A stretch of DNA of 64,000 nt from Plantactinospora soyae. GTDB lineage: Bacteria; Actinomycetota; Actinomycetes; Mycobacteriales; Micromonosporaceae. Below, piece after piece: positions 5,961-59,746 of this stretch (within the stretch, counting starts at the first letter, position 1; every line of letters starts with the position of its first letter). The DNA lies in the NCBI RefSeq assembly GCF_014874095.1, contig NZ_JADBEB010000001.1:7192001-7256000 (forward strand), read 5' to 3'. The notes beneath the pieces are model-generated. The model was given only the letters and a program-made list of their open reading frames with translations, made no database searches and was not told where the DNA came from. The position numbers and the translations under genes are program-made.

Positions 5961-6029
5961 GGCGGAAGTGTATGCCCACGCCAGCGGGAGAATCGGTTGA
6001 CCGAAGGAGGATTGCGCGGCCGGCAACGT

Positions 6030-7130
6030 CTAGCGGGTGGCGACCCGGGATTCGTGTCTGATCTGGGTAAGGAAGAAGTCCCGGATGTCCTCGGCGAGCA
6101 GCTCCGGCACCTCCATCGCGGCGAAGTGGCCGCCGCGCTCGAACTCCGACCAGTGCCTGATGTCGTACAGCCGCTCGGCCAGCGGTCGTACCGACTGCGT
6201 GATGTCCTGCGCGAACACCGCCACGCCGACCGGTACCGGGCACGGTTCGACCCGCCGCGGTGTCTCCCGGGACAGCCGCGCCGAGGAGGCTGCGGTGGCG
6301 GTCAGCCAGTACAGCGAGATGTCGGTGAGCATCCGCTCGTCACTGATCGGCGTACGAGGGTCGGTCCACTGCGCGAAGCGCTCGGCGATCCAGGCCAGCT
6401 GGCCGACCGGTGAGTCGGTCAGCGCGTACCCGATGGTCTGCGGCGTGGTGGCCTGCAGAGCCTGGTACGGCGGCCGGTTCGCCATCAGCTTCCTGATTTT
6501 GTCCAGTCGGGCCTCATCCGCTTCGGACACCTCGACGTCGGGGTCCGGCCGGGTCGGCAGGTAGTTGACGTGCACCCCGACGACCTGCTCGGGTGCCACC
6601 GCGCCGAGCGCCGTCGAGATGCCCGCGCCGAAGTCGCCGCCCTGCGCGCCGTAACGCTCGTACCCGAGCCGGCGCATCAGCTCAGCCCAGGTCCGCGCGA
6701 CCCGGACGATGTCCCAGCCCCGCTCCTGGGTCGGCCCGGAGAAGCCGAAACCCGGGATGGACGGGATCACCAGGTGGAAGTCGCGCGACAGCGGCTCAAT
6801 CACGTCGAGGAACTCCAGGAACGAGCCGGGCCAGCCGTGGGTGAGGATCAGCGCGAGCGCGTCCGGTTTCGAAGACCGGACGTGGACGAAGTGGATGTTC
6901 TGGTCGTCGATTTCGGTGCTGAAGTGCGGAAGCTCGTTGAGCTTGGCCTCATGCTCGCGCCAGTCATAGCCGGTGCGCCAGTACTCGGCCAGTTCCTTGA
7001 GCCGCGCCAGCGGAAAGCCGTAGTCCCACCCGGCGTCGGCGACCTCGTTGGGCCAGCGGGTGCGGGAGAGCCGGTCGGCCAGGTCGTCGAGGTCGGCCTG
7101 GGGGATGTCGATGCGGAACGGCTTGATCAT
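6030..7130 (-). CDS. Epoxide hydrolase family protein (EHN + alpha/beta hydrolase)
   Basis: 366 residues. The N-terminal about 100 residues are the epoxide hydrolase N-terminal domain ([40 protein letters not shown]), followed by an alpha/beta hydrolase fold. The oxyanion motif is HGWPGS (about residue 98), the nucleophile Asp lies in [10 protein letters not shown] (about 168), and a C-terminal HFAAMEVPE block carries the likely catalytic His. Known members hydrate epoxides to diols; the physiological substrate is not evident. The gene is divergent from a MarR regulator, with palindromes in the shared promoter region, suggesting repression by that regulator. It lies 3-70 bases upstream of the DnaK-WD40 gene on the same strand, so co-transcription is possible. 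Confidence 0.9.
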
Positions 7131-7163
7131 GCTCTCAACTCCGGGAGGATTCGTTCGGCCGCC

Positions 7164-7186
7164 AAACGTTAGGACACTAAACGTTT
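7164..7186. promoter_or_regulatory. Near-palindromic operator candidate, MarR/epoxide hydrolase divergent promoter
   Basis: AACGTTAG, then GACA, then CTAAACGTT form an inverted repeat with one inserted base, between the epoxide hydrolase start (7130) and the MarR gene start (7244). The same stretch also reads as a direct repeat of AAACGTT(T)AGGA. Position and symmetry fit a MarR dimer site; this is inference from context. Confidence 0.6.
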
Positions 7187-7221
7187 AGGATTCGAACGGT
7201 AGCATGATCGTTGGTGCTCCG

Positions 7222-7232
7222 AACGATTCGTT
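7222..7232. promoter_or_regulatory. Second short palindrome next to the MarR gene start
   Basis: AACGA-T-TCGTT is a perfect 5-1-5 palindrome ending 11 bases before the GTG start of the MarR gene. It shares the AACG core with the palindrome at 7164-7186 and would suit autoregulation by blocking the promoter or ribosome binding region. Confidence 0.45.
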
Positions 7233-7243
7233 AGACTCGTCAC

Positions 7244-7711
7244 GTGCCGGACCAACCCGAGGAGACGCCCGCCAGCTGGGAGCGCCTGCCCAGCTGGCTG
7301 CTGACCCAGACCGCCAACCACGCGCACCGCCTGGTGGCCGAGGGGTTCTCCTCCGTCAACGCCCGCGGCTACCACTACCGCCTGCTGGCGACGCTGGAAC
7401 ATCTCGGCCCGGCCAGCCAGGCCACGCTGGGCCGACGGAGCGGCATCCACCTCAGCGAGATGGTCGCGACGATCAACGAACTCGCCGATCGCAAACTGGT
7501 CGAGCGCGCCCCGGACCCCTCCGATCGGCGGCGCAACATCATCTCGCTCACCGCCGGGGGCAAGCGGCAACTGCGGCGTCTGGAGAAGCAGCTGGCCGAA
7601 GCCCAGGACGAACTGCTGGCCCCCCTGTCACCCGAGGAGCGGCAGCGGTTGACCGAGCTGCTGTCCAGGCTGTTGGACCACCACGACCGGCGAACCGGCA
7701 CCCCCGGATAG
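7244..7711 (+). CDS. MarR family transcriptional regulator
   Basis: 155 residues from GTG 7244. The winged-helix core is clear: HYRLLATLEHLGPASQATL (helices 1-2), the recognition region SGIHLSEMVATINELADRKL, and the wing with the family signature DPSDRRRNIISLTAGGK. The C-terminal helix (SPEERQRLTELLSRLLDHH) is the usual dimerisation helix. Length is typical of the family. It is divergent from the epoxide hydrolase, with two AACG-type palindromes between the genes, so it probably represses itself and the hydrolase and releases DNA on binding a small lipophilic ligand. The ligand is not predictable from sequence. Confidence 0.92.
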   Translation: MPDQPEETPASWERLPSWLLTQTANHAHRLVAEGFSSVNARGYHYRLLATLEHLGPASQATLGRRSGIHLSEMVATINELADRKLVERAPDPSDRRRNIISLTAGGKRQLRRLEKQLAEAQDELLAPLSPEERQRLTELLSRLLDHHDRRTGTPG

Positions 7712-8320
7712 CCAGCGCGCCGACCGGGGAGCGGCCCCCAGATCTTCGCGCGAAGGCCCGTCGGCAGTCCGCCACGCCCGGCTACCCGGCCACACCCGCC
7801 GGAACCGCACCCCAGCCCGGCCAACCGACCGAGACCACCGCTCAACGTCGAGGTCCGGCACGCGATACCCGACGAACGCGGGTACCGGCCGACACGCTCA
7901 GTGCCGTCGCGGTATTAATGCCATCGCGCCGTACGTCGGGCGACGCGTGATCGAAATCAACGGTACGGAGTCCCCGGCGGGCCGGACGGTCGAGGCGTCC
8001 TCGTCCAAAACTCGGCCGGATGTCAAAATCGGTTGGCGTTACTCCTCCTATCTCGACATCATCTGATTGGACAGAATTCCAGGCACAGAACGCGGCCGGC
8101 CGTCACGGAAAGCCAGCGCCGGTTGCGCAGACGTTATTTTCGATCTTTCTGGAAGTTCTGCTGACCAGCGCATATTCAGCCAGAGAAGATCTGGTCGCGG
8201 CGATGGCTGACCGACGAGCCAAATGGCCGTTCCGGACCACTCCACTCCGAGTCAAATGTCTGCCACTGGTTCCTCGACCGTGTGTGCCATTCTGAAGGCC
8301 CTCGTCAGCTGGGAGATAAG
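7712..8320. other. Intergenic region, no supported gene
   Basis: About 600 bases between the MarR gene and the STAND pair. The right half (about 7950-8250) is noticeably lower in GC than the surroundings. A frame at 8020-8295 is open, but its protein has no recognisable fold and no ribosome binding site supports it. The promoter of the STAND operon should lie at the right end; a GGGAG Shine-Dalgarno sits at 8311-8315. Confidence 0.5.
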
Positions 8321-10867
8321 ATGCGTCGGTCCAGATCGGCACTTCTCGTTCTCGGGGCCACGGTGTTGATATTGGGTGCCTGGACGGCGGCGGTTCTGTT
8401 GAGTCCGGCATCCACAAGATCGTGGACATCGGTCGTACTCGCGATAAGCGTCGTCCTGACGATCGCCCAGGTGCTGGGCCGGCGGCGGGCGATCACAGCG
8501 GCGGTAGCCGGGTCGACAGGCCGCTACCCCCGAACCGCCACCCCGCAGCAGCCCGCTCGGGACTACGTCGTGCCCTTCGCGGCCCCGCCATCGGCGCTGA
8601 TCATCGGGCGGGACGAGGAACTCGACAGAATTCTGCGCTTTGTACGTCGGCGCGAGCCTCGCGGACCACGGGTGGTCGTCATCCACGGGCCGCCGGGAAT
8701 CGGGAAGACCGGCCTCGCGGTCAAGGCGGCACATCGGTGTGCGGACGACTTTGCCGACGGCGTGCTGTTCGCGTCGCTGGGTGGACCGGTGCTGGAGGCG
8801 GGCACCCTGGACGTGATCACCGAGGAGGTTCTCGCCGGTTTCATCGACTCGCTGCAGGGGCCCGACGAGTCGATTCCGGCCGGGCTCGGCGCGCGGCGCG
8901 ACCGCTTCCGGCAGCTGACCCACGACGTTCGCGGCCGGGTGCTGGTCGTCCTGGACGACGCACCTGACGACCCTGTCGGACTGCGGTCGTTGCTGCCGGC
9001 CGGAGACGACGCGGCGGTGTTGGTCACCGCTCGCGAGCCACTGTCGATTCCGGGCGCACTCACGGTCGAGCTCACCCCGTTGGCGGACCGGCACGCGATC
9101 AGCCTGTTGCGTCAGATCGTCGGCGCCGAGCGGATCGCTCAGGAGGAGGAGGCGGCCCAGGCCATCGCGCGACGGGCGGCCGGCTCGCCGCTGGCGCTGC
9201 AGATCGCCGCCGCCTCGCTGGTCAGCCGGCCGTACTGGACGCTGGCCGCGGCGGTGAAGAACATGGACCTGTTGGAGGAGCCCGCTCCGACGGCCAACGG
9301 ATCAGTGCCGGCAGGACGGTCGCTGGATCCGAGCTTCGCGATGCTCACCCAGGAGGAGCGGGCGGCGCTGACCGTGCTGGGGCTGCTGGAGTCGGCCACC
9401 TTCGCGCCCTGGGAACTCGCCGCGCTGCTCGGCAACGACGTGGAGACCGCCCAGCGGCTCAGCGACCGCCTCGTCCATGCCCGCCTGGTGGAACACATCA
9501 CCGATGACGCCACGGGTGTTGCCGTCTACCGGATGCTGGAGCATGTCCGCGACTACGTGCAGGCTCGACTGCGGGCACAGCCGATGGACGACGGCCGACT
9601 TGCCACCGCCCGGGTACGGCTGGACGAGTTGCGTACGGCACGGCGCAACCGCGACCTGCAGAGCATCCTCAACGACCACGTCTATCCGAATCTGGACATG
9701 GGACTACTGGGGTACGCGCTCAGCCACGCGCGCGACGCCCTCGCCCAGTCGCGGGAGAACATCGAGCAGGCGCGCCAGAACCTCGGACTCGCCCGCTGCG
9801 GTGCGACAGCCGACTCGGAGGGCGGATGGCCGGCGCAGCTTGCCGCGATCCGACTGTCCGAGGCGTACGAGGGGGAAGGGCTCGCCCTCGCGGCGCTGGC
9901 CGAGTTGCTGGCCGAACTCGGCGGGGTCGACGACGCATTCGAGATGGCAGCAAAGGCGCTGAGCACCGAGGCAGCGCAGGCAGCCCCGCGTGCGCTGAGG
10001 TGTCAGGGCAAGTTGCAGCGTCGGCAGCGTCGGCTCGACGAGGCGGAGAAGACGTTCAATCTGGCGATCGAAGGGGCCCGGACCATCCGCGACGGTGCCG
10101 AGGAGGGTCGCGTCTGGCGCGAGATGGCGATTCTGTGGGCGTGCCGGGGATATACCGAGGAGGGTCTGGCGGCAGTGGACCAGGCCATGGGGCTGGACCT
10201 GCGGGAGGATGCCGCCGCCCGGTTGCTGCCAAGCCTTCTCGTCTCCCGGGCGGTGGTGCTGCTCGACGCCGCGGACCGCAGCACCGGGTCCGGACGCGCC
10301 GGCCTACTCGCCCGAGCCGACGACTCGCTGTGTGAGGCGAGGCGGACGGCCGACGTCCAGGGGCAACGGCTCTGGCGGGCATGGATCGACTACGAGCGGG
10401 CCCGTACGGCACATCGGTCCGGCCACTTCGATCACGGCCGCCGGCTGGCGTTCCGGGCGATGGAAGAGTTCACCCAGATGCGGCATCGATACGGCACCGC
10501 GCGCTGCCGGCTGGAGGTCGGGCGCATCTATCTCGATCAGCAGCGTCCGCAGGAGGCCCTGCCGGTGCTCGAGGAGGCGAGGCTGACGCTGTCCACCTGC
10601 GGTGGCCGGTGGATCGAGGCCCAGACGGCGGTGGTTCTCGCCGAGGCCCAGGAACAGGTCGGCCGGGTGGGCGAGGCGATGCGGGAGTTGGCCCTGGCGA
10701 TCGGCCACTACCAGGAACTGGGCGACCGCGCGGGTCTTGTCACGGCGAACCGAGCGCTGGACCGGCTGCGGGACTCGGTGCCGCGGCAGCGTGCCGGGCG
10801 ACGAGGGGTACAGGTCGGATCCGGCCGGTTGCTGCCGTCGCGGGCCTGGCCGAGCCGGGTGTCGTGA
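8321..10867 (+). CDS. Membrane-anchored STAND NTPase (NB-ARC) with TPR repeats, first of a pair
   Basis: 848 residues; ATG 8321 chosen because GGGAG lies six bases upstream. The N-terminus has two hydrophobic helices (about 6-28 and 36-54), so the protein is probably membrane-tethered with the NTPase in the cytoplasm. The NB-ARC core has a P-loop (HGPPGIGKTGLA, about residue 125), Walker B (RVLVVLDDAPDD) and a GSPLAL block (about 290). A winged-helix-like region precedes Ala/Leu-rich helical TPR repeats (about 500-800). No effector domain or DNA-binding domain is visible. Its stop codon shares one base with the start of a second protein of the same plan, so the two are co-translated. STAND proteins switch on ligand binding by oligomerising; the signal here is unknown. 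Confidence 0.87.
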   Translation: MRRSRSALLVLGATVLILGAWTAAVLLSPASTRSWTSVVLAISVVLTIAQVLGRRRAITAAVAGSTGRYPRTATPQQPARDYVVPFAAPPSALIIGRDEELDRILRFVRRREPRGPRVVVIHGPPGIGKTGLAVKAAHRCADDFADGVLFASLGGPVLEAGTLDVITEEVLAGFIDSLQGPDESIPAGLGARRDRFRQLTHDVRGRVLVVLDDAPDDPVGLRSLLPAGDDAAVLVTAREPLSIPGALTVELTPLADRHAISLLRQIVGAERIAQEEEAAQAIARRAAGSPLALQIAAASLVSRPYWTLAAAVKNMDLLEEPAPTANGSVPAGRSLDPSFAMLTQEERAALTVLGLLESATFAPWELAALLGNDVETAQRLSDRLVHARLVEHITDDATGVAVYRMLEHVRDYVQARLRAQPMDDGRLATARVRLDELRTARRNRDLQSILNDHVYPNLDMGLLGYALSHARDALAQSRENIEQARQNLGLARCGATADSEGGWPAQLAAIRLSEAYEGEGLALAALAELLAELGGVDDAFEMAAKALSTEAAQAAPRALRCQGKLQRRQRRLDEAEKTFNLAIEGARTIRDGAEEGRVWREMAILWACRGYTEEGLAAVDQAMGLDLREDAAARLLPSLLVSRAVVLLDAADRSTGSGRAGLLARADDSLCEARRTADVQGQRLWRAWIDYERARTAHRSGHFDHGRRLAFRAMEEFTQMRHRYGTARCRLEVGRIYLDQQRPQEALPVLEEARLTLSTCGGRWIEAQTAVVLAEAQEQVGRVGEAMRELALAIGHYQELGDRAGLVTANRALDRLRDSVPRQRAGRRGVQVGSGRLLPSRAWPSRVS

Positions 10868-13836
10868 TGTCGGTACGCCGCCGGGTGCCCGTGGCCCTTC
10901 GTCCCGTCGGCAGATGGTGGTCCCGCAACCACGTCCGGATCGCGGCGTGCATGACGGGCACGGCGGGCTTCGCCGGAACGCTGTTCGGCAATGACGACGT
11001 CACGGTCGCCGGGGTCGTGATGGCGGTTCTGATCGGCGTCTGTACCGGCGCGCCCGTCGCGCTGATGGAGCGCACGATCCGGGCAACCATCGGAGAGCGC
11101 GCTTCCCGGTCGTCGACGCGTATCGGCCCCCGGTTGCCGACCGCGCGGGAACTGCTGGCGGCACCGCCGCCGGAGAGCCTGAGCACCTTTCGAGGTCGGT
11201 CACCCGAAATCCGAGCGCTGATGGATCTGCACGGGCAGGAACGCCGGTCTCGAGAACGTGATCCTCAACAGGCGGCCGGTCCGGTGCTGTTGCGGATCCA
11301 CGGGCAGCCCGGGGTGGGCAAGACCGTACTGGCCCAGGAGCTCGCCCGTCACCTCGCACCCGAGTACCCCGACGGAGTCATCTCGGCCAACTTCGGCACC
11401 GCGGGCGACTCCCGACCACCAGCGGAGATCCTCAAGGAACTCCTGCTGCAACTGGGCCTGCAGGAGAGCGACATGCCGGCCGACACGACCGACCGGGCGG
11501 GCTTCCTCCGCTCGGTGACCGTCGGCAAGCGGATCCTGTTCATCTTCGACGCCGCGCGGCATCACGACCAGGTGCTACAGGTGCTGCCGACAGAGCCGGG
11601 CTGCGCGGTGGTCGTGACCAGTCGCCGGGATCTCGGCCCCGGTCTCAACATCTCCTCGTCCTCGGCTCCCCCGCTGGAGGTTCCGTCGCTCGAGGACGCC
11701 TTGGAGATCCTTGCCGCAGTCACCCGTACCGGCTGGGAAACCCAGGCCGAGCAGGCGATCGAAGTCGTCGAGTTGTGCGGCCGGCTACCCCTGGCGATCC
11801 GGTCGGCCGCCGAGCGGGTCGCGCTGGACGGGACTGACCTGCGGCACGTGGTCGACCTGCTCCGGCCGCCGAAGACGAGGCTGGGCTGGTTGGAACAGGG
11901 AGGTCACGGCGTACGGGAGCGGCTACTGTCCGAGTACCAACGGCTCGTACCGAGTCAGCAGCGGGCGTTGTGCCTGTTGACGCTGGTGGAGTCCCCGACC
12001 TTCGTGCCCTGGGTCCTCCGGCCCCTCCTCGATGTGCGGCCCGACGAGGCGGAGAACATCATGGCGTCGCTGGGCGCCGCACAGCTGCTGGAGAACGCGA
12101 AGCACGACCAGGCGACCGGCGTCGCCCGTTACGGGTTCAACCCGTTGGTCCGGCTGTTCGCCAAGGCGATGTTGTCCGAGCACGCGGTGAGCATCGCCGC
12201 GGCCCGGAACCGGCTCGAGGACGCCTACCTGGAACTGGTCGACGACGTGCTCACCGAGTTCGACGAAGGGTACGTCAGCACCCGTACCCGGCACTGGATC
12301 TCGGCCAACTCCCGGGCGCCGGGCCGCGTCGCGGCGCTGCCCGACTTCGGCGTACGGGCGGAGTACCACAACCTGGTCCGGCTGGTGAGCGCCGCGCGGG
12401 AGCAGGGGGAGGCGGGGATGTCGTGGCGGATCGCCGCCAGACTGCAGGGCTGCGTACCAGAGCGGGCGGCGCTCAGACAGAATCTCGACGCGTTCGACAG
12501 CGCCGTCGCGGCGGCCAGGACGGACAACTCGGCGCTGGGTGAGGTCGACGTCTGCCTCGCCAAGGGCGCGTTCCTCGTCGCCCTGGAACGGTACTCCGAG
12601 GCCATCGAGATACTGACCGAGGCCGGTACGCATGCGGAGGAGGTACAGAAGGCTGCGGGTACGCAGACAGGCCAGCCCGACGGCCAGGCCCGAGAGGCGG
12701 CCGTACGGCGGGTCGCCGCGGCGGCGGTACGGCGGGCCCGGATCCAGCGCAAGATCGCCGAGGCGTACCTCCAGATGGGCGCGTACCGGGAAGCCAGCGT
12801 TGCCCTGGAGAGCGCGGCTGAGCTGGCCGAGCGGGCGGCCAGCGGCGAGGAGGAACAACTGGTCGCGTTGCTGCGGGCCGAGACTCACCGGGTGACGAGT
12901 CCGCATCCGACCAGCGCCGACATCCTGGAGGGGCGGCTGCACGATCCGGTGTACTTCCGCGCGCATCTCGGGCTCTCGGAGGCGGCCCGGCGGCGCGAGC
13001 ACTGGCGTACCAGCGAAGAGCATCTCCTCACCGCGGAACAGCACAGCAGTGGCGATGCCAGGCGAACCGCCGCCGTCTGTTACCGACTCGCCCGGCTCTA
13101 TATCGAACGCTGGCGGCACGAGGCAGGAGACCTGGGGGTACCGCTGCCGTCCACCCCGGGCACGAACGACACGGCGCCGGATCCGTCCCGGACGGCCTTG
13201 GCCGATCTGCCGAAGATGGCTGTCCGGCGGGCTGCCGAGGCTGCGGTCGCGTTCGCGCGGATGGGGAACGACATCGGTCTCGCCCGTGCCCGCTGTCAGG
13301 AGGTGCGCGCCCTGATCATCGCCGGGCACCTCGGCGAGGCCGAACGGCTCAGCCAGGACGTCTGGCAGTCCGTCATGATGTTGGATGCCTCCGCCGGCCC
13401 GGCCTGGTCGGCCCTCCTGGCGCGCTTTGCCCGCAGCTCCGGCGAGCTCCTGCTGCACCGTGGCGACATCGGCGCGGCATGGCGCACCCTGGTCCGTGCC
13501 GCCAAGCTGTACGCGACCAACGACGACTGGGCCTGTCACGCCGAGATCTGGCGGCTGCTGCGCATCGTCGAATGCCGTTACCCCTTCCCCGAGAGCACGG
13601 CATTGGTCGGGCTGGACCAGACTCTCGAGGACGCCGTGACGGCTACCGTTCGGCCGACGTTGTGGAGCGGCGAGCGGGCACCACTGTCATCCCTCGTACC
13701 GCTGGCGCGAGACGGACGGACGGAGTCCAGGTCGCAGGCTCGTGCCGAGCCGTCTGCCGGCGAGCCGGCTGTCGACCGTACGGGCAGTCCGGCCAGCGAA
13801 GGCGATCCCTGGTCCCGCCGTACGATCGCCGGCTGA
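10867..13836 (+). CDS. Membrane-anchored STAND NTPase (NB-ARC) with TPR repeats, second of a pair
   Basis: 989 residues from ATG 10867 (GTG 10864 also possible); the start overlaps the preceding stop (TGATG). Two hydrophobic segments near the N-terminus (about 23-40 and 42-65) suggest membrane anchoring. The NTPase shows LLRIHGQPGVGKTVLAQELA (P-loop, about residue 140), Walker B RILFIFDAARHHDQ and a GRLPLAIRSAAERVA block. It continues into a long helical TPR region (about 500-930) ending in a polar tail. It resembles the upstream protein in order of parts but is clearly diverged. Likely partners or subunits of one signalling complex. Family function beyond NTP-switching cannot be read from the sequence. 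Confidence 0.87.
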   Translation: MSVRRRVPVALRPVGRWWSRNHVRIAACMTGTAGFAGTLFGNDDVTVAGVVMAVLIGVCTGAPVALMERTIRATIGERASRSSTRIGPRLPTARELLAAPPPESLSTFRGRSPEIRALMDLHGQERRSRERDPQQAAGPVLLRIHGQPGVGKTVLAQELARHLAPEYPDGVISANFGTAGDSRPPAEILKELLLQLGLQESDMPADTTDRAGFLRSVTVGKRILFIFDAARHHDQVLQVLPTEPGCAVVVTSRRDLGPGLNISSSSAPPLEVPSLEDALEILAAVTRTGWETQAEQAIEVVELCGRLPLAIRSAAERVALDGTDLRHVVDLLRPPKTRLGWLEQGGHGVRERLLSEYQRLVPSQQRALCLLTLVESPTFVPWVLRPLLDVRPDEAENIMASLGAAQLLENAKHDQATGVARYGFNPLVRLFAKAMLSEHAVSIAAARNRLEDAYLELVDDVLTEFDEGYVSTRTRHWISANSRAPGRVAALPDFGVRAEYHNLVRLVSAAREQGEAGMSWRIAARLQGCVPERAALRQNLDAFDSAVAAARTDNSALGEVDVCLAKGAFLVALERYSEAIEILTEAGTHAEEVQKAAGTQTGQPDGQAREAAVRRVAAAAVRRARIQRKIAEAYLQMGAYREASVALESAAELAERAASGEEEQLVALLRAETHRVTSPHPTSADILEGRLHDPVYFRAHLGLSEAARRREHWRTSEEHLLTAEQHSSGDARRTAAVCYRLARLYIERWRHEAGDLGVPLPSTPGTNDTAPDPSRTALADLPKMAVRRAAEAAVAFARMGNDIGLARARCQEVRALIIAGHLGEAERLSQDVWQSVMMLDASAGPAWSALLARFARSSGELLLHRGDIGAAWRTLVRAAKLYATNDDWACHAEIWRLLRIVECRYPFPESTALVGLDQTLEDAVTATVRPTLWSGERAPLSSLVPLARDGRTESRSQARAEPSAGEPAVDRTGSPASEGDPWSRRTIAG

Positions 13837-47198: not shown

Positions 47199-50012
<2,814 letters not shown>

Positions 50013-50108: not shown

Positions 50109-50444
50109 TGCGGTCTAGCCGGTGGTGCAGGATCTGATCTGGGGGCGGGCGCTGGAGTTGCCGTTTGTCATGGTGGTGAAGCCGAAGGTGTTGCCGCTGC
50201 CGTTGGAGCGCATTGTCAGTACGGTGTTGTTGCTGCTCAGGCTGGCGCTGCCGCTCCAGGTGGTGGTGATCTGCTGTGGTGCGGTGACGGCTGCTACCAC
50301 GGTCCAGCTACTGGCGCCGCTGACTGTCAGCGAGGTGTTGTACCGGTCGCCCCAGACCGTGCCGGGTGTTACCGACGCGGTGCAGTTTCCACCGGGCGGT
50401 GGCCCTGTGGGCGACGTGGTCGGCGTAGGCGTAGGCGAGGTGGT
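50109..50444 (-). repeat. CBM2-coding inverted repeat, left arm (in CE1 gene)
   Basis: 336 bases matching 54568-54903 in opposite orientation with no gap and only two mismatches that I can find. It covers the Pro/Thr linker, the CBM2 module, the stop codon and a few bases beyond. The pair encloses about 4.1 kb. Confidence 0.9.
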
Positions 50445-51389
50445 CGGCGTGGGCGATGTCGTCGGCGGCGTGCTGGTGTTCAGGCCGAAGAAACGGATCG
50501 CCTCGGCGGCGTTCACCGGAAGATTGTGCGGCACGCCCTGCAAGCTGATCGCCTCGACCGGGGCCTGCCCGCCACTGCCCCCGTACCGGGTGCGGGTGTA
50601 GCCGGACTGCGGGGTGTCGGTGAAGGTGGGTGTCTGGCTCAGCCCGTGCAGGTTGGTCCACTGCTTGATCTCTTCACCGAAGTTGGGATAGCGCAGCGTC
50701 TCGTCGTTCGTGCCGTGCCACAACTGCATACGCGGCCGGGTACCGGTGTAGCCCGGGTACGCGTTGCGGACCAGGTCACCCCACTGCTGGGCGGTACGGG
50801 TGATCTGGCCGTTGGCGCACTCGCTGTTCCAGGTCGAGCTGCCGGTCGTCGCGAAGCAGCCGAAGGGCACGCCTGCGAACGCGGCGCCGGCCTTGAACAC
50901 GTCCGGATAGAGCCCGAGTAGGACGTTGGTCATCATCGCGCCGGACGAGGTGCCGGCGGCGAAGATGCGGTTGGGGTCGGCGTTGTAGCGCTGCTGCACG
51001 TAGCTGACCATCGACCTGATCGAGACCGGGTCGCTGCCGCCGTCGCGTCGTAGTGCCTGTGGGGAGTAGACGTCGAAGCACTGGCCGCTGCGGGTCGCCG
51101 ACGGGTATATGACGATGAAGCCGTACTGGTCCGCCTGGCGGGCGAACTGAGTGCCGGAGTAGTAGGCAGGCCCGGTGCCGGTGCAGTAGTGCACGGCCAC
51201 GAGGATGCCCGGATTGGCTTGGACCCGGTCCGGTACGTACAGGTGCATGCGCAGGTTGCTCGGGTTGGTGCCGAAGCCGGTCACCTCGGTGAGCGTGGCC
51301 GCGGATGCCGGTGGCGCGATCGTGAGCGTGGCGGCCACGAGCGCGATCGCGAGGCCCGCGGCGCCGGTCAGGAATCGTCTGAGTCTCAT
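50115..51389 (-). CDS. Secreted PHB-depolymerase-type (CE1-like) esterase with CBM2
   Basis: 424 residues from ATG 51389, with GGGAGG upstream. Signal peptide 1-30 (GLAIALVAATLTIAPPASA). Catalytic domain: PGILVAVHYCTGTGPAYYSG, FIVIYPSATRSGQCFD, nucleophile Ser in IFAAGTSSGAMMTNVLLG, and RMQLWHGTNDETLRYPN with the acid Asp; the His is likely in GVPHNLP. This is the Esterase_phb group, which includes CE1 acetylxylan and feruloyl esterases. A Pro/Thr linker and a C-terminal CBM2 follow. In this locus it most likely removes acetyl or feruloyl groups from xylan. Confidence 0.92.
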   Translation of the reverse strand: MRLRRFLTGAAGLAIALVAATLTIAPPASAATLTEVTGFGTNPSNLRMHLYVPDRVQANPGILVAVHYCTGTGPAYYSGTQFARQADQYGFIVIYPSATRSGQCFDVYSPQALRRDGGSDPVSIRSMVSYVQQRYNADPNRIFAAGTSSGAMMTNVLLGLYPDVFKAGAAFAGVPFGCFATTGSSTWNSECANGQITRTAQQWGDLVRNAYPGYTGTRPRMQLWHGTNDETLRYPNFGEEIKQWTNLHGLSQTPTFTDTPQSGYTRTRYGGSGGQAPVEAISLQGVPHNLPVNAAEAIRFFGLNTSTPPTTSPTPTTSPTPTPTTSPTGPPPGGNCTASVTPGTVWGDRYNTSLTVSGASSWTVVAAVTAPQQITTTWSGSASLSSNNTVLTMRSNGSGNTFGFTTMTNGNSSARPQIRSCTTG

Positions 51390-51502
51390 ATGGGTTGGTC
51401 CTCCCGAACCGTTGGGTGCCGGTTGGCTGAAGGGGTGCGCTGGCCCGCTGGCCGTGCGTGGTTACCGAAGGGCCGCGCACGGCCAGCGGCGGTTCTTAGG
51501 GT

Positions 51503-53113
51503 TTAACCGGCGGTGCAGGAGTTGATCTGGGGTCGGGCGCTGGAGTTGCCGTTCGTCATCGTGGTGAAGCCGAACGTGTTACCGCTGCCGTTGGAGCGCA
51601 TCGTCAGCACGGTGCCGTTGCTGTTCAGGCTGGCGCTGCCGCTCCAGGTGGTGCTGATCCGCTGTGGCGCGGTGACGGCCACCACCACGGTCCAGCTGCC
51701 GGCGCCGCTGACCGTCACCGAGGTGTTGTACCGGTCACCCCAGACCGTGCCCGGGGAGGTCGACGCGGTGCAGCTGCCACCGGGCGGTGGTGTGGTCGGC
51801 GGCGGCGTGGTCGTGGGCGGAGGGGTCGTGGGCGTGGGGCCGGTGGGCGGTGGGGTGGTCGGTCCGTCGGTGAGGACCGGGGTCTGCCAGTCGCGCCACT
51901 CGGCCAGGTTGCCCTGTTTGCGGCTGGAGATCCGAATCGTGCCGGCGGCGTTGCCGGTCTTGAGCAGATGCTTCTGGATGTTCTGCTGCAACGGGGTTCG
52001 CCACTCGGAGCGGCTGGCGCAGTGGGTGCCGTCGGAGACGTCCGACCAGTAGGTGATGTTGTCTCCCGCCCCGAGTGCCTTGTAGATCTCGGCGCCGGCG
52101 AGGGCGGCGTTGCTGCCGGAGCGGGCGGCGAGCCAGTCGATGTGTGGGTTCTCCATGACGAACAGGCCGCGGGGTGCGACGAGGCCGATCATTTGGTGGG
52201 TGTCGACCGGCAGCCCGCTGGGGTTGCTGGTGTAGGCGCTGAACGCGTCACCGAGCCAGGGCTGCTCGCCGTAGGCGCTGGACAGCGGTTGGGAGCCGGA
52301 CTCGCCGGGGATGCCGCGGAAGATCGGGGCACCGCCGGAGCCGGACTCGATCGGCATGGTCAAAGCGATCCGTTGGTCGAACGCGCCGATCACGAACGCG
52401 CCCTTGCCGTAGCGGGAGCAGCCGGTCACCCCGGTCGCGTCGGGGCGGAGGATGGTGCCGCCGGACTGTTCGATGACGTCGATGATCCGGGACACCCCCC
52501 AGGCCCAGGCCATCAGGATTCCGGTGCTGCTGTTGGCGCCATAGAGCGTGTAGAAGGCGCCCTGCTTGTTGTTGCGGGGGGTGCCTTCCCGGCCGACGGC
52601 CAGGGGGTCGTAGTTGATGACCGCGGCGCCGGCGTTGCGGATGGTGGCGGTGTCGGCGCCGAACCCACCCAGGACGACGACGGCCGGGAACGGGCCGGTG
52701 CCCGACGGCAGTTGGACGCTGGCGGAGAAGCTGGCGTTGCGGCCCTGGTCGGACACGTTCACCTGGATGCTCGTGTTCGAGACGGTGCCGCTCACGGTGG
52801 CCGGTTTAGCGGGCTTCTGCCCGTACACGGTCCGCTCGGCCAGTTCCCGGGTCTCGGCCCGCCGGCATCGCCATTCGGCTTTGGTGGTGATGCGCGTGCC
52901 ATCCAACTTCCGGAACGGGTCGGGCAGCCGGGAGCTGGCCGGTACGGACGTGTTCGGCACCGGGCAGTCGGCGCCCTCGTCTTCCACCGTGGACGCGGCG
53001 TGCGCGGGTGTGGTCCGGCCTATCACGGTTACCGTCCCGGTGACGGTGAGCGCCGCAACCGCGAGCGTGATGACCGCTGAACGTAGCTTCGAGCGGCCTG
53101 GGCGGAGTGTCAT
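51503..53113 (-). CDS. Secreted CE15 glucuronoyl esterase with CBM2
   Basis: 536 residues from ATG 53113, with AAAGGAGAG upstream. Signal peptide 1-40 (VITLAVAALTVTGTVTVIG, AHA). The CE15 domain (about 45-400) shows TKAEWRCRRAETRELAERTV then YG at its start, the nucleophile motif VTGCSRYGKGAFVIGAFD, the Glu in MPIESGSGGAP, and the His in DGTHCASRSEW. Such enzymes hydrolyse esters between glucuronic acid on xylan and lignin alcohols. A linker and CBM2 close the protein. The CBM2-coding DNA is nearly identical to that in the GH10 gene. Confidence 0.93.
   Translation of the reverse strand: MTLRPGRSKLRSAVITLAVAALTVTGTVTVIGRTTPAHAASTVEDEGADCPVPNTSVPASSRLPDPFRKLDGTRITTKAEWRCRRAETRELAERTVYGQKPAKPATVSGTVSNTSIQVNVSDQGRNASFSASVQLPSGTGPFPAVVVLGGFGADTATIRNAGAAVINYDPLAVGREGTPRNNKQGAFYTLYGANSSTGILMAWAWGVSRIIDVIEQSGGTILRPDATGVTGCSRYGKGAFVIGAFDQRIALTMPIESGSGGAPIFRGIPGESGSQPLSSAYGEQPWLGDAFSAYTSNPSGLPVDTHQMIGLVAPRGLFVMENPHIDWLAARSGSNAALAGAEIYKALGAGDNITYWSDVSDGTHCASRSEWRTPLQQNIQKHLLKTGNAAGTIRISSRKQGNLAEWRDWQTPVLTDGPTTPPPTGPTPTTPPPTTTPPPTTPPPGGSCTASTSPGTVWGDRYNTSVTVSGAGSWTVVVAVTAPQRISTTWSGSASLNSNGTVLTMRSNGSGNTFGFTTMTNGNSSARPQINSCTAG
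51524..51751 (-). repeat. CBM2-coding direct repeat, copy in CE15 gene
   Basis: Partner of 48519-48746 in the same orientation, about 3 kb away. Recombination between the two would delete the CE1 gene and join the CE15 catalytic domain to the unknown C-terminal domain of the xylanase. Confidence 0.85.
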
Positions 53114-53377
53114 CGTGGCTCTCCTTTCAGGGTTGGCAACGGACGTTGAAATTGACCTTGAGGTACGTGGTGGGGGTAGCTGCGCCCGACCGCCGCAGCC
53201 GACACGTGCGCGGCTGCGGCGGGTAAAGCAGCGGGCCCGGCTGGATCCGGTCCGCCGCCGAGCGGTACGTGGTGCCCAACGCGGCCTCCTTGGGGTGACA
53301 GTCGTGGGGTGCGGGTGGGGCCCGACGCCGGTTGAGCTGAGGCATTGACCTCGCGCCACCCGTAGGCCGGAAGGTTA

Positions 53378-53390
53378 CGGAAAGGTTTCG
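53378..53390 (-). promoter_or_regulatory. Operator-like motif upstream of the CE15 gene
   Basis: CGGAAAGGTTTCG preceded by AGGTTA. A mirror-oriented relative lies at 53722-53734. The pair flanks the divergent promoter region of the xylan locus. CGAAA-type palindromes are known as xylanase-gene control sites in Streptomyces; assignment here is by resemblance. Confidence 0.55.
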
Positions 53391-53721
53391 TGAAATTCAA
53401 GAGTATAGATTTGGGTGTTGACCTGGTCTTCCGCTACGAAAGACCAGGTCAGGCGTCGATCCTGCGGAGTCAGATGGGGCGATAATTTCCGCTACTCACC
53501 CGCAAAGGTCGGCTGCCTCGACAGCGAACACCGACCTCCCGAGGTTTCGTGACTATGTCCGACACGATCGCGCCTACGTCGACCCGTCGACACATCACTA
53601 ACTGCCGGTGGTCTCGCCAGCGCGTTGAGCAGCTTAAATCAGTTGTTCAGCGTGATGTTCTTCGATGCCTGCGGCGGCCGTCGGCTGGACAAGCCACCGG
53701 AATCCAGGGTCTTGGATATTT

Positions 53722-53734
53722 CGGAAAAGTTTCG
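53722..53734 (+). promoter_or_regulatory. Operator-like motif upstream of the SGNH esterase gene
   Basis: CGGAAAAGTTTCG followed by TAACCT, i.e. AGGTTACGAAAC on the other strand. It differs from 53378-53390 by one base in the 13-base core, and the AGGTTA extension points the opposite way, so each copy faces its own gene symmetrically. Confidence 0.55.
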
Positions 53735-53844
53735 TAACCTAGGCCCCAGATGGCTTGGCACTCCCTCGCGACGGCCGGACCTGGCACACCCCCGACGGCA
53801 ACATGAGCCGGCCCGCCGCCCGCCCCGTTGATCCGGAGGAGCAG

Positions 53845-54897
53845 ATGCGCAAAAGATCGACTAGACCGCTACTGGCCGTTCTCACCGCGGTGGTGGTGGC
53901 GCTCGGTGGAGCCGTCCTCGCCGATGGCGCGGCCAGCGCCGAGTCCAACGGCGGCGTCCGCGTGATGCCGCTCGGTGACTCCATCACCGACGGGCTCACC
54001 GTGCCCGGTGGCTACCGGATCGGTCTCTGGCAGAAGCTCGTCGCCGGCGGTCACACCGTCGACTTCGTCGGCTCCCAGTTCAACGGGCCGGGCAGCCTCG
54101 GCGACCACGACCACGAGGGCCACTCCGGCTGGCGCATCGACCAGATCGACGCCAACATCGTCAACTGGCTGCGCACCACCACACCCCGCACCGTGCTGCT
54201 GCACATCGGCACCAACGACATGTTCGGCAACGCCGCCAACGCCCCCGCGCGGCTGTCCGCATTGCTCGACCGGATCACCAACACCTCACCCGGCATCATC
54301 GTGTTCGTCGCGACCATCATCCCGTTCCCCGCCGCCGACTCCGCCGTGCGCACGTTCAACGCCGCGATCCCCGGCATCGTCCAAGGAAAGGTCGCCGCGG
54401 GCAAACGCGTCCACCTGGTCGACATGTACCGCGCGCTGACCGCCGCCGACCTCGCCGACGGCGTCCACCCCAACGCGGGCGGCTACGAGAAGATGTCCAC
54501 CGCCTGGTTCAACGCGCTGCGCTCCGTCCCGGACAGCCTCACCAACGGCACACCCTCGCCGACCCCCACCACCTCGCCTACGCCTACGCCGACCACGTCG
54601 CCCACAGGGCCACCGCCCGGTGGCAACTGCACCGCGTCGGTAACACCCGGCACGGTCTGGGGCGACCGGTACAACACCTCGCTGACAGTCAGCGGCGCCA
54701 GTAGCTGGACCGTGGTAGCAGCCGTCACCGCACCACAGCAGATCACCACCACCTGGAGCGGCAGCGCCACCCTGAGCAGCAACAACACCGTACTGACAAT
54801 GCGCTCCAACGGCAGCGGCAACACCTTCGGCTTCACCACCATGACAAACGGCAACTCCAGCGCCCGCCCCCAGATCAGATCCTGCACCACCGGCTAG
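53845..54897 (+). CDS. Secreted SGNH/GDSL esterase with CBM2
   Basis: 350 residues from ATG 53845, with CCGGAGGAG just upstream. Signal peptide 1-36 (LLAVLTAVVVALGGAVLA, ASA). The SGNH domain has block I MPLGDSITDGLTVPGGYR (nucleophile Ser), the Gly/Asn blocks (HEGHSGWRID; HIGTNDMFGN) and block V DGVHPNAGGYEKM (Asp and His). Members at xylan loci are often acetylxylan esterases (CE2/CE3-like). A Pro/Thr linker and CBM2 follow; the linker, CBM2 and stop lie in the inverted repeat shared with the CE1 gene. GH30 follows 67 bases downstream. Confidence 0.93.
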   Translation: MRKRSTRPLLAVLTAVVVALGGAVLADGAASAESNGGVRVMPLGDSITDGLTVPGGYRIGLWQKLVAGGHTVDFVGSQFNGPGSLGDHDHEGHSGWRIDQIDANIVNWLRTTTPRTVLLHIGTNDMFGNAANAPARLSALLDRITNTSPGIIVFVATIIPFPAADSAVRTFNAAIPGIVQGKVAAGKRVHLVDMYRALTAADLADGVHPNAGGYEKMSTAWFNALRSVPDSLTNGTPSPTPTTSPTPTPTTSPTGPPPGGNCTASVTPGTVWGDRYNTSLTVSGASSWTVVAAVTAPQQITTTWSGSATLSSNNTVLTMRSNGSGNTFGFTTMTNGNSSARPQIRSCTTG

Positions 54898-54903
54898 ACC
54901 GCA
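54568..54903 (+). repeat. CBM2-coding inverted repeat, right arm (in SGNH gene)
   Basis: Opposite-strand partner of 50109-50444. Differences I find: one base in the Ser-Ala-Thr-Leu region and one in the Gly-Gly-Asn codons before the first Cys. Both copies keep the reading frame, stop codon and a few bases beyond. Confidence 0.9.
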
Positions 54904-54964
54904 GTGCACGCGCTGACCATCGACCCGTTCAACGCTGGTGCCGCACGACCCACTGGAGTGAACC

Positions 54965-56653
54965 GTGAAGAAATCCCAGATTATGGTGGTGGCCGCAGCG
55001 ACCGCGCTGGTCAGCGTGGCGGGAGTTCTGACCGCCCCTCCCCTGTTGGCCGCAACGCCCGACATCACCGTCAACACCGCCTCGTCGTACCAGACGATCG
55101 ACGGGTTCGGGGCCGCGACCCCGATCTTCAATGGCTCCGGCAGCCCGTGGACCACCGGCGAAACTCAGACACTCGTCGGTACCGGCCAGGGGCAGCTCGG
55201 CCTGTCGATCGTCCGGACCGTGGTGTCGCCGGTATCGAGCGAGTGGGGCCTGTACGCGAGCAGCCTGCAGACCGCGAAGTCCTACGGCTCCGACGTCAAG
55301 ATTCTTGCCTCGCCCTGGACAGCCCCGGCAAACTTCAAGACGAACAACAGCAGAGTCAACGGCGGAAAACTCCGGACCGACTACTACGACGACTACGCGA
55401 CACACCTGAACAACTACGTGCAGTACATGAAGAACCAGGGTGTCACAATCGACGTGACCTCGGTCCAGAATGAGCCGGACTGGCACCCTGACTACGATTC
55501 GATGGACTGGACCGGCGCCGAGATGCGGAACTTCGTCCGCGACCAGGGCACCAAGATCACCGATACCAGGCTCATGGTTGGCGAATCCTTGAGATTCGCC
55601 CGCCAGTACTCCGACCCCAGCCTGCAGGACGCCACCGCGCGCAACAACATCGGCTACGTCGGCGGCCACCTCTACGACGCCGAGAACAGCGGAAACCTCT
55701 CCCCGTACCCGCTCGCGGCCCAGTACGGCAAGAACCAGTGGATGACCGAGTGGAACCTGCACGCGGCCGACGGGAATGGTTCGAACATCTGGGGCAACCC
55801 CAGCAACACGACTGTCTGGAACGAGACCCTGGACGACATCATGCGGACCGTACACAGGTCGATGGAGTCCGGTTGGAGCGCCTACGTCTGGTGGTACGGC
55901 CGCCGCTTCTACTCCTTCATCGGCGACGGCGAGTCGCAGTACGGGACCACGAAGGGCGCCGTTCTCAGACGCGGTAACGCGTTCTCGCAGTACTCCAAGT
56001 ACGTCCGACCCGGCGACAAGCGGGTCGCCCTCTCGAAAAGCTCAAGAGCTTCCTCCCTGGAGGTCACCGCCTACCAGGGCAGAGGCAAGGTCACACTGGT
56101 GATTCTCAACCGCTCGAACAGCGCGGTCAACAATGCCGTCATCCAGACCCCGCAGAGCATCTCGAACGCCGAGTACACCGTCACCTCACAAAACCTGGGC
56201 GCCGCGTCACAGCCGGCGAATCTCGACGACGGACAGGCGACCATCAGCGTCCCTGCGCGAAGCATCTCCACGATCACCCTCACCAACGGCCCGACCACCC
56301 CGCCGACCGGCCAGCCCACGACCAACCCGACCACCCCACCGTCGACCACACCCCCGCCCACCACCCCACCGGCCGGCGGTAGCTGCACCGCGTCGGTCAC
56401 CCCGGGCACCGTTTGGGGCGACCGGTACAACACCTCGGTAACGGTCAGCGGCGCCAACAACTTCACCGTGGTCGTAGCCGTCACCGCACCACAGGCGATC
56501 ACCACCAGCTGGAGCGGCAGCGCCAGCCTGAGCAGCAACAACACCGTACTGACAATGCGCTCCAACGGCAGCGGCAACACCTTCGGCTTCACCACCATGA
56601 CAAACGGCAACACCAGCGCCCGACCACAGATCAGATCCTGCACCGCCGGCTGA
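54965..56653 (+). CDS. Secreted GH30 glucuronoxylanase-type enzyme with CBM2
   Basis: 562 residues from GTG 54965, with TGGAGTG upstream. Signal peptide 1-29 (MVVAAATALVSVAGVLTAPP, LLAA). GH30 catalytic barrel plus its beta side domain (about 30-440): start SYQTIDGFGAATPIFNGSG, acid/base in VTSVQNEPDWHPDYDSMDW, nucleophile in WMTEWNLHAADG, and WSAYVWWYGRRFYSFIGDG, where subfamily 8 xylanases place the Arg/Tyr that grip methylglucuronate. A Thr/Pro linker and CBM2 complete it. GC is slightly lower than in neighbouring genes. It should cut glucuronoxylan next to decorated xyloses. Confidence 0.92.
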   Translation: MKKSQIMVVAAATALVSVAGVLTAPPLLAATPDITVNTASSYQTIDGFGAATPIFNGSGSPWTTGETQTLVGTGQGQLGLSIVRTVVSPVSSEWGLYASSLQTAKSYGSDVKILASPWTAPANFKTNNSRVNGGKLRTDYYDDYATHLNNYVQYMKNQGVTIDVTSVQNEPDWHPDYDSMDWTGAEMRNFVRDQGTKITDTRLMVGESLRFARQYSDPSLQDATARNNIGYVGGHLYDAENSGNLSPYPLAAQYGKNQWMTEWNLHAADGNGSNIWGNPSNTTVWNETLDDIMRTVHRSMESGWSAYVWWYGRRFYSFIGDGESQYGTTKGAVLRRGNAFSQYSKYVRPGDKRVALSKSSRASSLEVTAYQGRGKVTLVILNRSNSAVNNAVIQTPQSISNAEYTVTSQNLGAASQPANLDDGQATISVPARSISTITLTNGPTTPPTGQPTTNPTTPPSTTPPPTTPPAGGSCTASVTPGTVWGDRYNTSVTVSGANNFTVVVAVTAPQAITTSWSGSASLSSNNTVLTMRSNGSGNTFGFTTMTNGNTSARPQIRSCTAG

Positions 56654-57249: not shown

Positions 57250-57555
57250 GTGAAACGAGTGCTAAATCACCGTCAGCTCGGTTGGGAGCCTCTGCATCCG
57301 TTCGGGCTGGGCCGGCATGATGAGCTGCGGATCGAGGGCGGTGCCGGTGTGCCCGGGTTGGTGGTCGTCGGGGTTGGGCAGGCTGGCTTGGCGGCGGGCT
57401 ACTACCTGCGCCGCGCCGGCCCGGCTCTCGTCATCCTCGATGCGCAGGCGCGGCCGGGCGGCGCGTGGCGGCATGACTCACGTTCGACCCAGCACCTGCC
57501 CGGCGCAACTTGCACAGACCGGGAGAGGGTCGCGAACCCGACAAGCTACCGGTAG
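57250..57555 (+). pseudogene. ArsO-like flavin monooxygenase, N-terminal fragment
   Basis: About 101 codons. The Rossmann start is intact (LVVVGVGQAGLAAGYYLRRA, then ILDAQARPGGAWRH), as in ArsO-type flavin-dependent monooxygenases found beside ArsR. After GGAWRH the sequence departs from the family and stops at 57555, ten bases inside the convergent transporter remnant. The NADPH domain and the rest (about 270 residues) are missing. Confidence 0.75.
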
Positions 57556-58412
57556 CCGTCAAGGCCGAGTAGCGGTCCGAGCGCCTGGGCGGCCATGACG
57601 ACGCCGACGATAAGGACCAGGGTCGCGGTGGCCCATGGGGTGACGGCGGCGAGCCTCGCTGAAGCGGTGCCGATCCGGTGGGCGAGGCGTCCGTTCAGGT
57701 GGACGAGGAGGAGTCCGGCGGCGGTGAGGGCGGTGGCCATGCCCAGGCCGTAGGCGATGACGAGCAGGACTCCGAACCAGGTACGACCCAGCGCGATCGC
57801 GCCGAGCAGCGCGATCAGGGCGGATGGGCTCGGTACGAGGCCGCCGGCGACGCCGATGCCGATCAGTCCTCGGAGGATTCCGATGACGAGTACGCCGATG
57901 GTGTGGGTGGCAGTGACGGTGATGCCGACGGTGATCGCGTCGCGGTAGGTGCCTTGGCGGCCGGCGATGTAGGCGGCCATGACGGTTTTGCCGTGCCCGG
58001 GTAGGGCGGCGTGGGCGGCGCCGAGGAGGAGGGCGAGCAGGATGCCGAGTAGTCCGGCCAGCGGGGTGAGCTGGTCCGAGCCGACGAGGGTGTTGAGCCG
58101 GTCCCCCGCTGCGCTCATCGCGCGGGTCAACGGCCCTGCGATCGGGACTAGTGGTGGGGCCATGGCATCGGTGCCGGTGGTGCCCGGGGTGGTGCGGAGT
58201 TCGACTGTTCGCTGGTCCAGGGGCGAGGCGAGCAGGTCATCGGGGTGGCTGCGGAGTTCGTCGCTGATGCTCGTCGTGGGAACCGGGGGATCCCTGATCG
58301 CTACCGCGTGGCTGGTGGCAGTGATCTCGTGCCAGCCGATCCGGTCCGGTTGGTAGCTGTCCCGGAGGGTCACCGTGGTGGGACTACGTAGTACGGCGGC
58401 AGGCGGAACGAC
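57546..58412 (-). pseudogene. NicO-type nickel/cobalt transporter, 5' end replaced by transposase sequence
   Basis: About 288 codons. The N-terminal soluble part survives only from TLRDSYQPDRIGWHEITATS onward, then six or so membrane helices follow: LAGLLGILLALLLGAAHA, ALPGHGKTVMAAYIAGRQGT (the family signature), ITVTATHTIGVLVIGILRGL and TPWATATLVLIVGVVMAAQ. The original start and signal region are gone; the frame instead continues upstream into IS5 transposase sequence from GTG 58523. It could still make a chimeric membrane protein, but export of its N-terminal part is unlikely. Confidence 0.8.
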
Positions 58413-58523
58413 GACCGGCAACTGCCGCCAGGAGCAACCGGTCCGTCGCACGTACAAGATCGCGTCCACGACCGACCGCCGTGAGTTCTCCTCCGACCGG
58501 CCGAGCCACCTGGGCAGCGGCAC
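58413..58523 (-). mobile_element. IS5-family transposase fragment
   Basis: 37 codons from GTG 58523, reading RRSVVDAILYVRRTGCSWRQ then LPV. This is the conserved N-terminal DUF4096 block of IS5-group transposases (VVDAILYVxRTGCSWRxLP). It is joined in frame to the NicO transporter remnant. No second end or catalytic domain remains. Confidence 0.8.
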
Positions 58524-58651
58524 TTAGGCTTTCGTTGGTCTTGATCTGGCTCACTTGGTGGCCGTCGACCGTGGTACGTTTCACGCCGAGCAGGGTGAGA
58601 TCCGGTCGTGGTCCACTTCTGTACTGGGCCCCGCGATGTACGTCCGGTGCC

Positions 58652-59746
58652 CTAGTGTCCTGAGTCTTTGATTCGTTTGCAGTACGTCGCGAGGCTGGTC
58701 AGGATCTCGTCCGCGGTCTTGGTCCAGACGTACGGACGTGGCTGCTCGTTCCACACGGTGAGCCACGCCCGGATGTCCTTCTCCAACGCCACCACGCTGC
58801 GGTGGACACCCCGGCGAATGAGCTTGTTGGTGATCTCGGCGAAGAACCGTTCGACGAGGTTGAGCCAACTCGCGCTGGTCGGGGTGAAATGCAAGTGGAA
58901 ACGCGGGTTACGCAGCAGCCACCGCTTCACCGCCGGGGTCTTGTGGGTGGCGTAGTTGTCCAGCACCAGATGCACGTCCAGGTCTGCGGGCACCGAGGCG
59001 TCGATCTTCCGCAGGAACCTCAGGAACTCCTGCTGCCGATGCCGACGGTGCACCGACCCGATCACCGTCCCGCTGACCACGTCCAACGCCGCGAACAGAC
59101 TCGTCACACCCGCCCGCAGATAGTCGTGACTACGCCGCTCCGGGACGCCGGGCTGCATCGGCAACACCGGCTGCGACCTGTCGAGGGCCTGGATCTGCGA
59201 CTTCTCATCAACACACAACACCAACGCCCGCTCAGGAGGATCGAGATACAGGCCCACCACGTCACGGACCTTGTCGACGAACAACGGATCCGTGGACAAC
59301 TTGAACGACTCGGCCCGCCACGGCTGCAACCCGAACGTGCGCCAGATCCGCGACACCGTCGACTGCGACAACCCCGTCGCCGCCGCCATCGACCGACTCG
59401 ACCAGTGCGTGGCATTACGCGGCATCGACTCCAACGTCTCCACGATCACCCGCTCCACCTCAGCATCACCGACCCGCCGTGGCCGACCAGGCCGAGGCTC
59501 GTCATACAACCCATCAACCCGATGAACGACGAACCGCGACCGCCACGTGCCGACCGTCGGCAACGAAACACCGAGCAGCCGCGACACCTCACTGTTCGAC
59601 AGACCCCGCCCGCAAGCCAAAATGATCCGCGCCCGCATCGCCAACGCCTGCGCCGTTGACCGCCTTCGCGTCAACGCCTCCAACGCATCCCGCTCCGCAC
59701 CCGTCAACTCCAGCAGGGCCAACTTCGGCCCACGACCATCACCCAT
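58652..59746 (-). CDS. IS630 family transposase
   Basis: 364 residues from ATG 59746. N-terminal HTH region: AQALAMRARIILACGRGLSN then SEVSRLLGVSLPTVGTWRSR, and GLSQSTVSRIWRTFGLQPWR. DDE catalytic core: first Asp in ALVLCVDEKSQIQALDRSQP, second Asp in VHLVLDNYATHKTPAVKRWL, and Glu in TSASWLNLVERFFAEITNKL. Full length, no frameshift. Its TAG stop is completed by the TA target base pair outside the element end. Confidence 0.95.
   Translation of the reverse strand: MGDGRGPKLALLELTGAERDALEALTRRRSTAQALAMRARIILACGRGLSNSEVSRLLGVSLPTVGTWRSRFVVHRVDGLYDEPRPGRPRRVGDAEVERVIVETLESMPRNATHWSSRSMAAATGLSQSTVSRIWRTFGLQPWRAESFKLSTDPLFVDKVRDVVGLYLDPPERALVLCVDEKSQIQALDRSQPVLPMQPGVPERRSHDYLRAGVTSLFAALDVVSGTVIGSVHRRHRQQEFLRFLRKIDASVPADLDVHLVLDNYATHKTPAVKRWLLRNPRFHLHFTPTSASWLNLVERFFAEITNKLIRRGVHRSVVALEKDIRAWLTVWNEQPRPYVWTKTADEILTSLATYCKRIKDSGH

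Follow-up and report, generated by a model that had tools for sequence, protein, structure and literature searches.

Two near-identical inverted repeats within a gene cluster of Plantactinospora soyae are probably the outcome of tail replacement and homogenisation among neighbouring genes. The window analysed here, a stretch of 64,000 nucleotides, contains five adjacent genes that each carry a related tail, of which those for GH10, CE1-type and CE15 enzymes are on the minus strand and those for SGNH and GH30 enzymes are on the plus strand (Table 1). Judged from their sequences, all five enzymes look xylan-active. The two repeat arms would belong to a set of interchangeable 3' cassettes, each consisting of a Pro/Thr linker, a compact CBM2b-like module and a stop codon, that is spread over these xylanolytic genes. 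The CE1 and SGNH genes would have gained their CBM2b-like tails through recombination within the tail region, after which homologous recombination (gene conversion, presumably of the RecA type) would have kept the two copies nearly identical or made them so. The inverted orientation of this pair would then be incidental, and occasional resolution by crossover could invert the 4.1-kb segment between the arms, neither protein losing anything. The process is ordinary and of a kind already known; the arrangement is a neat one.

Table 1. Positions within the window of the repeat arms, genes and operator candidates of the cluster.
Feature	Position	Strand	Basis
GH10 xylanase; internal related tail (48506-48834), then C-terminal domain without match	47199..49922	-	
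Left arm: tail of the CE1 gene (linker, CBM2b-like module, stop) and 6 nt beyond	50109..50456	-	348 nt, 5 mismatches to right arm
CE1-type (feruloyl/acetylxylan) esterase with tail	50115..51389	-	PDB 8iy8 (feruloyl esterase), 5x6s (acetylxylan esterase)
Segment predicted to invert on recombination of the arms: catalytic parts of CE1 and SGNH, CE15 gene, divergent promoter	50457..54555	.	4099 nt; in-silico flip
CE15 glucuronoyl esterase; related tail (51503-51831)	51503..53113	-	Pfam GCE_fung
BxlR-like operator candidate, CE15 side	53379..53391	+	GGAAAGGTTTCGT
BxlR-like operator candidate, SGNH side	53723..53735	+	GGAAAAGTTTCGT
SGNH (CE3-like) esterase with tail	53845..54897	+	Pfam GDSL; nearest PDB 2vpt
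Right arm: equivalent tail ending the SGNH gene	54556..54903	+	Repeat listing and arm alignment
GH30 leader	54904..54964	+	Homology with P. mayteni starts at 54906
GH30 (glucuronoxylanase-like); related tail (56296-56651)	54965..56653	+	

A preliminary description of this DNA had reported arms of 336 bp with two mismatches and no gaps, and alignment of the arms returned exactly these figures. Positions 50109-50444 match the reverse complement of 54568-54903 apart from 50242 (C/G) and 50388 (T/G, the right-arm base being read as reverse complement), and one of the two differences is silent. The full inverted pair (50109-50456 and 54556-54903) extends to 348 nt with 5 mismatches, and the repeat listing gives the same arms (99%, 4099 nt apart); a match of 336 nt at 99% is not due to chance. 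Beyond 50109 and 54903 identity drops straight to background, while the inner ends fade inside the linker. Each arm has the limits first proposed, covering the linker, CBM2-type module and stop of an esterase gene (CE1-type or CE3-like SGNH), together with 6 nt beyond; the CBM2 assignment itself rests on PDB matches, Pfam CBM_2 falling below its cut-off. The leader of the GH30 gene, which is conserved in P. mayteni, begins 3 nt past the end of the right arm, and hence the outer end of this arm is a junction.

The Pfam CBM_2 scores were 14.8 and 14.5 bits for the CE1 and SGNH tails (cut-off 24), and the other three tails were unlisted. The nearest PDB entries are modules of Cellulomonas fimi xylanase D (1heh, E 1.2e-13; 1xbd, 2.3e-12; 1e5b, 3.4e-11), and because these are xylan-binding modules we describe the tails as CBM2b-like. 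The likeness to the C. fimi CBM2b modules extends to length, apparent absence of the CBM2a stretch and aligned Trp, Arg and Trp positions, which we take to be W259, R262 and W291 in the xylanase D numbering. However, sequence similarity is only moderate, and the binding of the window tails to xylan is a prediction. Excerpts of PMC9996879 define CBM2b as lacking an eight-residue stretch of CBM2a and describe it as xylan-binding; by eye, the window tails are shorter than the CBM2a tails of their relatives.

The assignments of the five genes to CE1, SGNH, CE15, GH10 and GH30 in the preliminary description hold, each on Pfam or PDB matches. Two start codons were picked by eye: that of SGNH at 53845, from a ribosome-binding site (53755 in the list of open reading frames), and that of CE15 at 53113 (53359 in the list). 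The C-terminal part of the GH10 protein, of approximately 400 residues (47199-48455), has no match in Pfam (apart from one chance-level row, 0.25) or NCBIfam and no credible match in the PDB; its DNA shows 82% likeness to a stretch adjoining CE15 in Paractinoplanes rishiriensis (L041:11624-12887). To the right of the cluster (57546-59746) there is an IS630-family transposase gene (58652-59746), and an open reading frame nearer to the cluster (57546-58523) has a short match to IS4/5-type transposases fused to a NicO-like part.

The tails carried by related genes suggest where those of the two esterases came from. Tail type was assigned from whichever of three query tails matched best in tblastn, which is not a subfamily model, and was read at 13 CE1 and 9 SGNH loci, the closer ones of those fetched. 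Among these 22 relatives in the genus, 18 have a CBM2a-type tail, none was found in 4, and none has a CBM2b tail. CE1 relatives account for 11 of the CBM2a-type tails (with no tail found in two of the 13, one being cut by a contig end, and CBM2b in 0 of 13) and SGNH relatives for the other 7 (none found in two of 9, CBM2b in 0 of 9). In the wider family, 11 of 14 SGNH relatives are CBM2a-type, 2 are CBM2b-like (51-54%) and 1 has no tail. CBM2b tails are found on CE15 (3 of 9 copies besides that of the window, with 5 CBM2a-type and 1 none), on GH30 (2 of 4 copies in the genus, with 1 CBM2a-type and 1 none) and more commonly on GH10 (5 of 9 copies, with 1 CBM2a-type and none found in 3). Since relatives of CE1 and SGNH mostly bear CBM2a modules and CBM2b modules occur on the other three enzymes, it is most likely that the window CE1 and SGNH tails were received from the GH10/CE15/GH30 pool, and we infer the direction of transfer accordingly from these sequence comparisons.

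The 336-nt arm, searched against the entire 9.7-Mb genome, yielded 11 matches, namely the five cluster tails, two sequences at 82-87%, one at 69% and three short ones. Over 264 aligned nucleotides the CE1 and SGNH tails of the window differ at 2 positions and the GH10 and CE15 tails at 10, whereas the remaining 8 of the 10 window pairs differ at 24-34; the stretches related to the arms in the other three genes are 48506-48805 (GH10), 51511-51810 (CE15) and 56314-56613 (GH30). For a wider comparison we used 18 full-length Plantactinospora tails out of 32 distinct ones collected, the 14 exclusions being tails that were partial at contig or locus ends, tails from other genera and four weak matches (42-46%). 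All four pairs that are at least 96.5% alike are intragenomic, and both orientations occur among them: CE1 and SGNH of the window (99.6% over 258 nt, inverted, 4.1 kb between), the GH10 tail of genome G004 and another tail of that genome 996 kb away (99.2%), GH10 and CE15 of the window (96.9%, direct), and CE15 and GH30 of P. mayteni (96.5%, direct). The best pair between genomes reaches 93.4% among the 18 tails. The nearest tail to each of the five window tails is in its own genome, and copies within a genome are more alike than their counterparts between genomes, as for tuf genes, with exceptions among GH10 tails. The GH30 genes of the window and P. mayteni have catalytic parts 90% identical in protein, whereas their tails are only 83.3% alike. 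The GH10 tails of P. mayteni and of genome G006 are nearest to that of genome G002 (92.2% and 93.4%), and homogenisation is consequently not universal among tails.

Tail sequences also have a mosaic appearance. In a sum-of-squares test of run lengths over 135 variable sites the observed value was reached in 0 of 2000 permutations, although longer runs could also result from functional constraint if this is clustered along the module. For single pairs, uncorrected values were p 0.0005 for GH30-CE1 and p 0.001 for GH10-CE15; the CE1-SGNH pair (p 0.87), with one differing site, gives the test no power. On a tree of the tails the genome label changes 7 times, compared with a mean of 9.4 after shuffling and a value as low in 0 of 200 shuffles; with 3 of 15 inner branches starred and 8 open, the resolution of this tree is poor, and near-copies by themselves are enough to make labels cluster. 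Matching tails within a cluster have an independent counterpart in another genus (G047), where the SGNH and GH10 tails are 89% alike. In that locus (L218, G047:C1:441000-459465, positions 5519-13545) CE15, SGNH, GH10 and GH30 genes occur together with CBM2b-like tails.

It is rather unlikely that the arms reflect a single recent duplication, in which linker, module and stop were copied once from gene to gene and no conversion followed. For the CE1 and SGNH genes considered alone, such an event fits as well as repeated conversion, because the run test is powerless for this pair. That two of 336 nt differ, one of the changes being silent, is in keeping with it, as are the sharp ends of the arms 6 nt past the stop codon, with the GH30 leader conserved in P. 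mayteni starting 3 nt further on. Set against this, other pairs of tails at other distances and in other orientations have also been homogenised, and the mosaic look makes a continuing process more economical.

The preliminary description proposed that inversion between the arms would leave both esterases intact, and this was borne out when we flipped the segment in silico, placing the crossover in turn at all 348 offsets. Both proteins stay full length (424 and 350 residues) at every offset; 134 offsets leave both unchanged, and the other 214 exchange a single residue in each. It was also proposed that inversion would give genes new neighbours. On paper the order CE15-CE1-GH10 / SGNH-GH30 becomes CE15-CE1-GH30 / SGNH-GH10, so that GH10 and GH30 are indeed re-partnered, and a simple scan of the relevant strand revealed nothing terminator-like between CE1 and GH10 (192 nt), between CE15 and CE1 (113 nt) or between SGNH and GH30 (67 nt). 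The long, near-identical inverted arms, the survival of both proteins and the lack of terminator-like sites in the gaps favour flipping of the segment by homologous recombination, at a rate sufficient to alter the operon membership of GH10 and GH30, and the divergent promoter lies inside the segment together with both operator candidates. We nevertheless regard this reading as quite improbable. Homogenisation is also seen between direct copies (GH10/CE15 of the window and CE15/GH30 of P. mayteni) and between distant ones; near-identity is thus no evidence for a dedicated flip, and tail homogenisation is the better supported explanation of it.

Gene order in other genomes bears on the same question. 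No close copy of the cluster was found elsewhere in 7 genomes of the genus (this one included) or in 200 genomes of the family, and none of those examined has its genes in flipped order. Among the best matches listed, the closest SGNH proteins in the genus outside this gene are 65-69% identical; the best in the 200 family genomes is 82% identical (G113), and the other four genes are absent from the 19 kb around it (L215). The CE15 and GH30 genes of P. mayteni stand next to each other and point the same way; after a flip of the window segment CE15 and GH30 would likewise share a direction, with CE1 between them, and this speaks for inversion. However, the window CE15 is 78% identical to that of P. 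mayteni and about 80-85% identical to several others, so that it is not supported as the counterpart, and the CE15 tree does not settle orthology. In genome G037, CE1 is followed by GH10 in the same direction, as in the present state. The neighbours in these two genomes point to opposite ancestral states, and neither is favoured.

According to excerpts of a study in Salmonella, inversions made up 5 of 59 recombinants between inverted cassettes and, in earlier work on tuf genes, up to a quarter of events (PMC8262849), which lends the flip some plausibility. In the same excerpts, direct copies recombine at 3.9e-6 per generation and inverted ones at a rate 2.2-fold lower, with 8% inversions (PMC8262849). 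By our arithmetic these figures would correspond to about 1e-7 inversions per generation in Salmonella, suggesting a rare variant and not a switch. The Salmonella tuf genes and kan cassettes resemble the arms in that inverted homologous copies homogenise and sometimes invert what lies between them, as far as the excerpts describe (PMC8262849). There, however, the events were measured on copies of whole genes or cassettes (PMC8262849, in excerpts), whereas in the window we infer them from genes that have nothing in common beyond the 3' third or less.

The promoter region between CE15 and SGNH contains two candidate operators, which are the only exact copies of GGAAARGTTTCGT in the genome. With 1 mismatch allowed there are 6 matches genome-wide, compared with 3 for the reversed control, for a pattern that was chosen after both sites had been seen. 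The notion that the pair is striking by count alone was rejected, two or more matches (with up to 2 mismatches) being obtained in 16 of 100 shuffles of the window. Support for the motif comes instead from its position in other genomes. A wider form, GAAAN1-3TTTC, is present in the window only at the two candidates, and among the best 80 of 208 CE15 loci 59 of its 69 copies, at 41 of the 80 loci, are situated upstream of the CE15 match at a distance of up to 600 nt, a region that makes up 3% of the bases; of the control motif AAAGN1-3CTTT, 0 of 5 copies fell in these upstream regions. GAAAN1-3TTTC is absent from eight Plantactinospora stretches (L183-L190). The site of the xylobiose-responsive repressor BxlR is given as CGAAACTTTCG in excerpts of PMC4743123, and the window sites match it inexactly, with a two-base spacer instead of one. 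Each operon has one of the sites in front of it, and since the segment includes the two sites, inversion would leave the control of both operons alike and alter only the distal gene. The likeness of the two operators suggests that a flip may change little, which weighs further against an operon switch.

A stronger form of the idea would make the segment a recombinase-free device for re-partnering operons, in which a divergent, xylan-regulated promoter flips, GH10 and GH30 swap esterase operons, and cultures contain both layouts side by side while no protein suffers; this we consider very improbable. Site-specific invertible promoters and gene inversion of the hsdS type rely on inverted repeats. 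The arms described here resemble these in that, lying within genes, they could exchange their flanks and leave the frames unbroken. They differ in that they are long instead of short, a flip yields the same two proteins, and the window contains none of the 18 genome matches to the integrase family PF00589 and neither of the 2 to the resolvase family PF00239, these being the two recombinase families sought.

That selection alone keeps the modules alike through a common substrate is hardly conceivable: five enzymes that look xylan-active and modules that resemble xylan-binding ones would suit it, but CE1 and SGNH are near-identical at silent sites too (third-position differences being 6 for GH10/CE15 and 14-19 for the other cluster pairs), which selection at the protein level does not produce.

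Tail replacement followed by homogenisation, the explanation we prefer, would offer secreted plant-wall enzymes a route to a new binding target, the catalytic part being kept and the 3' tail replaced by that of a neighbour. In the window, the CE1 and SGNH esterases bear the tail of the neighbouring xylanases, whereas the tails of their relatives are mostly of the cellulose type. A literature search on concerted evolution and gene conversion of bacterial cellulose-binding modules found nothing within its coverage, most subscription journals lying outside it. Kellett et al. in 1990 reportedly described, going by the title, identical cellulose-binding domains in the adjacent xynB and arabinofuranosidase of Pseudomonas fluorescens subsp. 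cellulosa (doi 10.1042/bj2720369, as cited in PMC4408175). That pair and the genes studied here both combine adjacent plant-wall enzymes of different catalytic domains with a common binding module. The host, however, is another, and the window tails are C-terminal or internal and CBM2b-like, with two of them inverted.

Clusters of this kind would be prone to recombination, with loss of genes between direct tails and inversion of segments between inverted ones as possible outcomes, a point to bear in mind in assembly and in the engineering of clusters. In P. mayteni, the CE15 and GH30 genes form a tandem (L183, G003:C23:550000-569000, positions 7841-10038) whose tails, in direct orientation, are 93.5% alike across 339 nt, and recombination between these tails would delete GH30.
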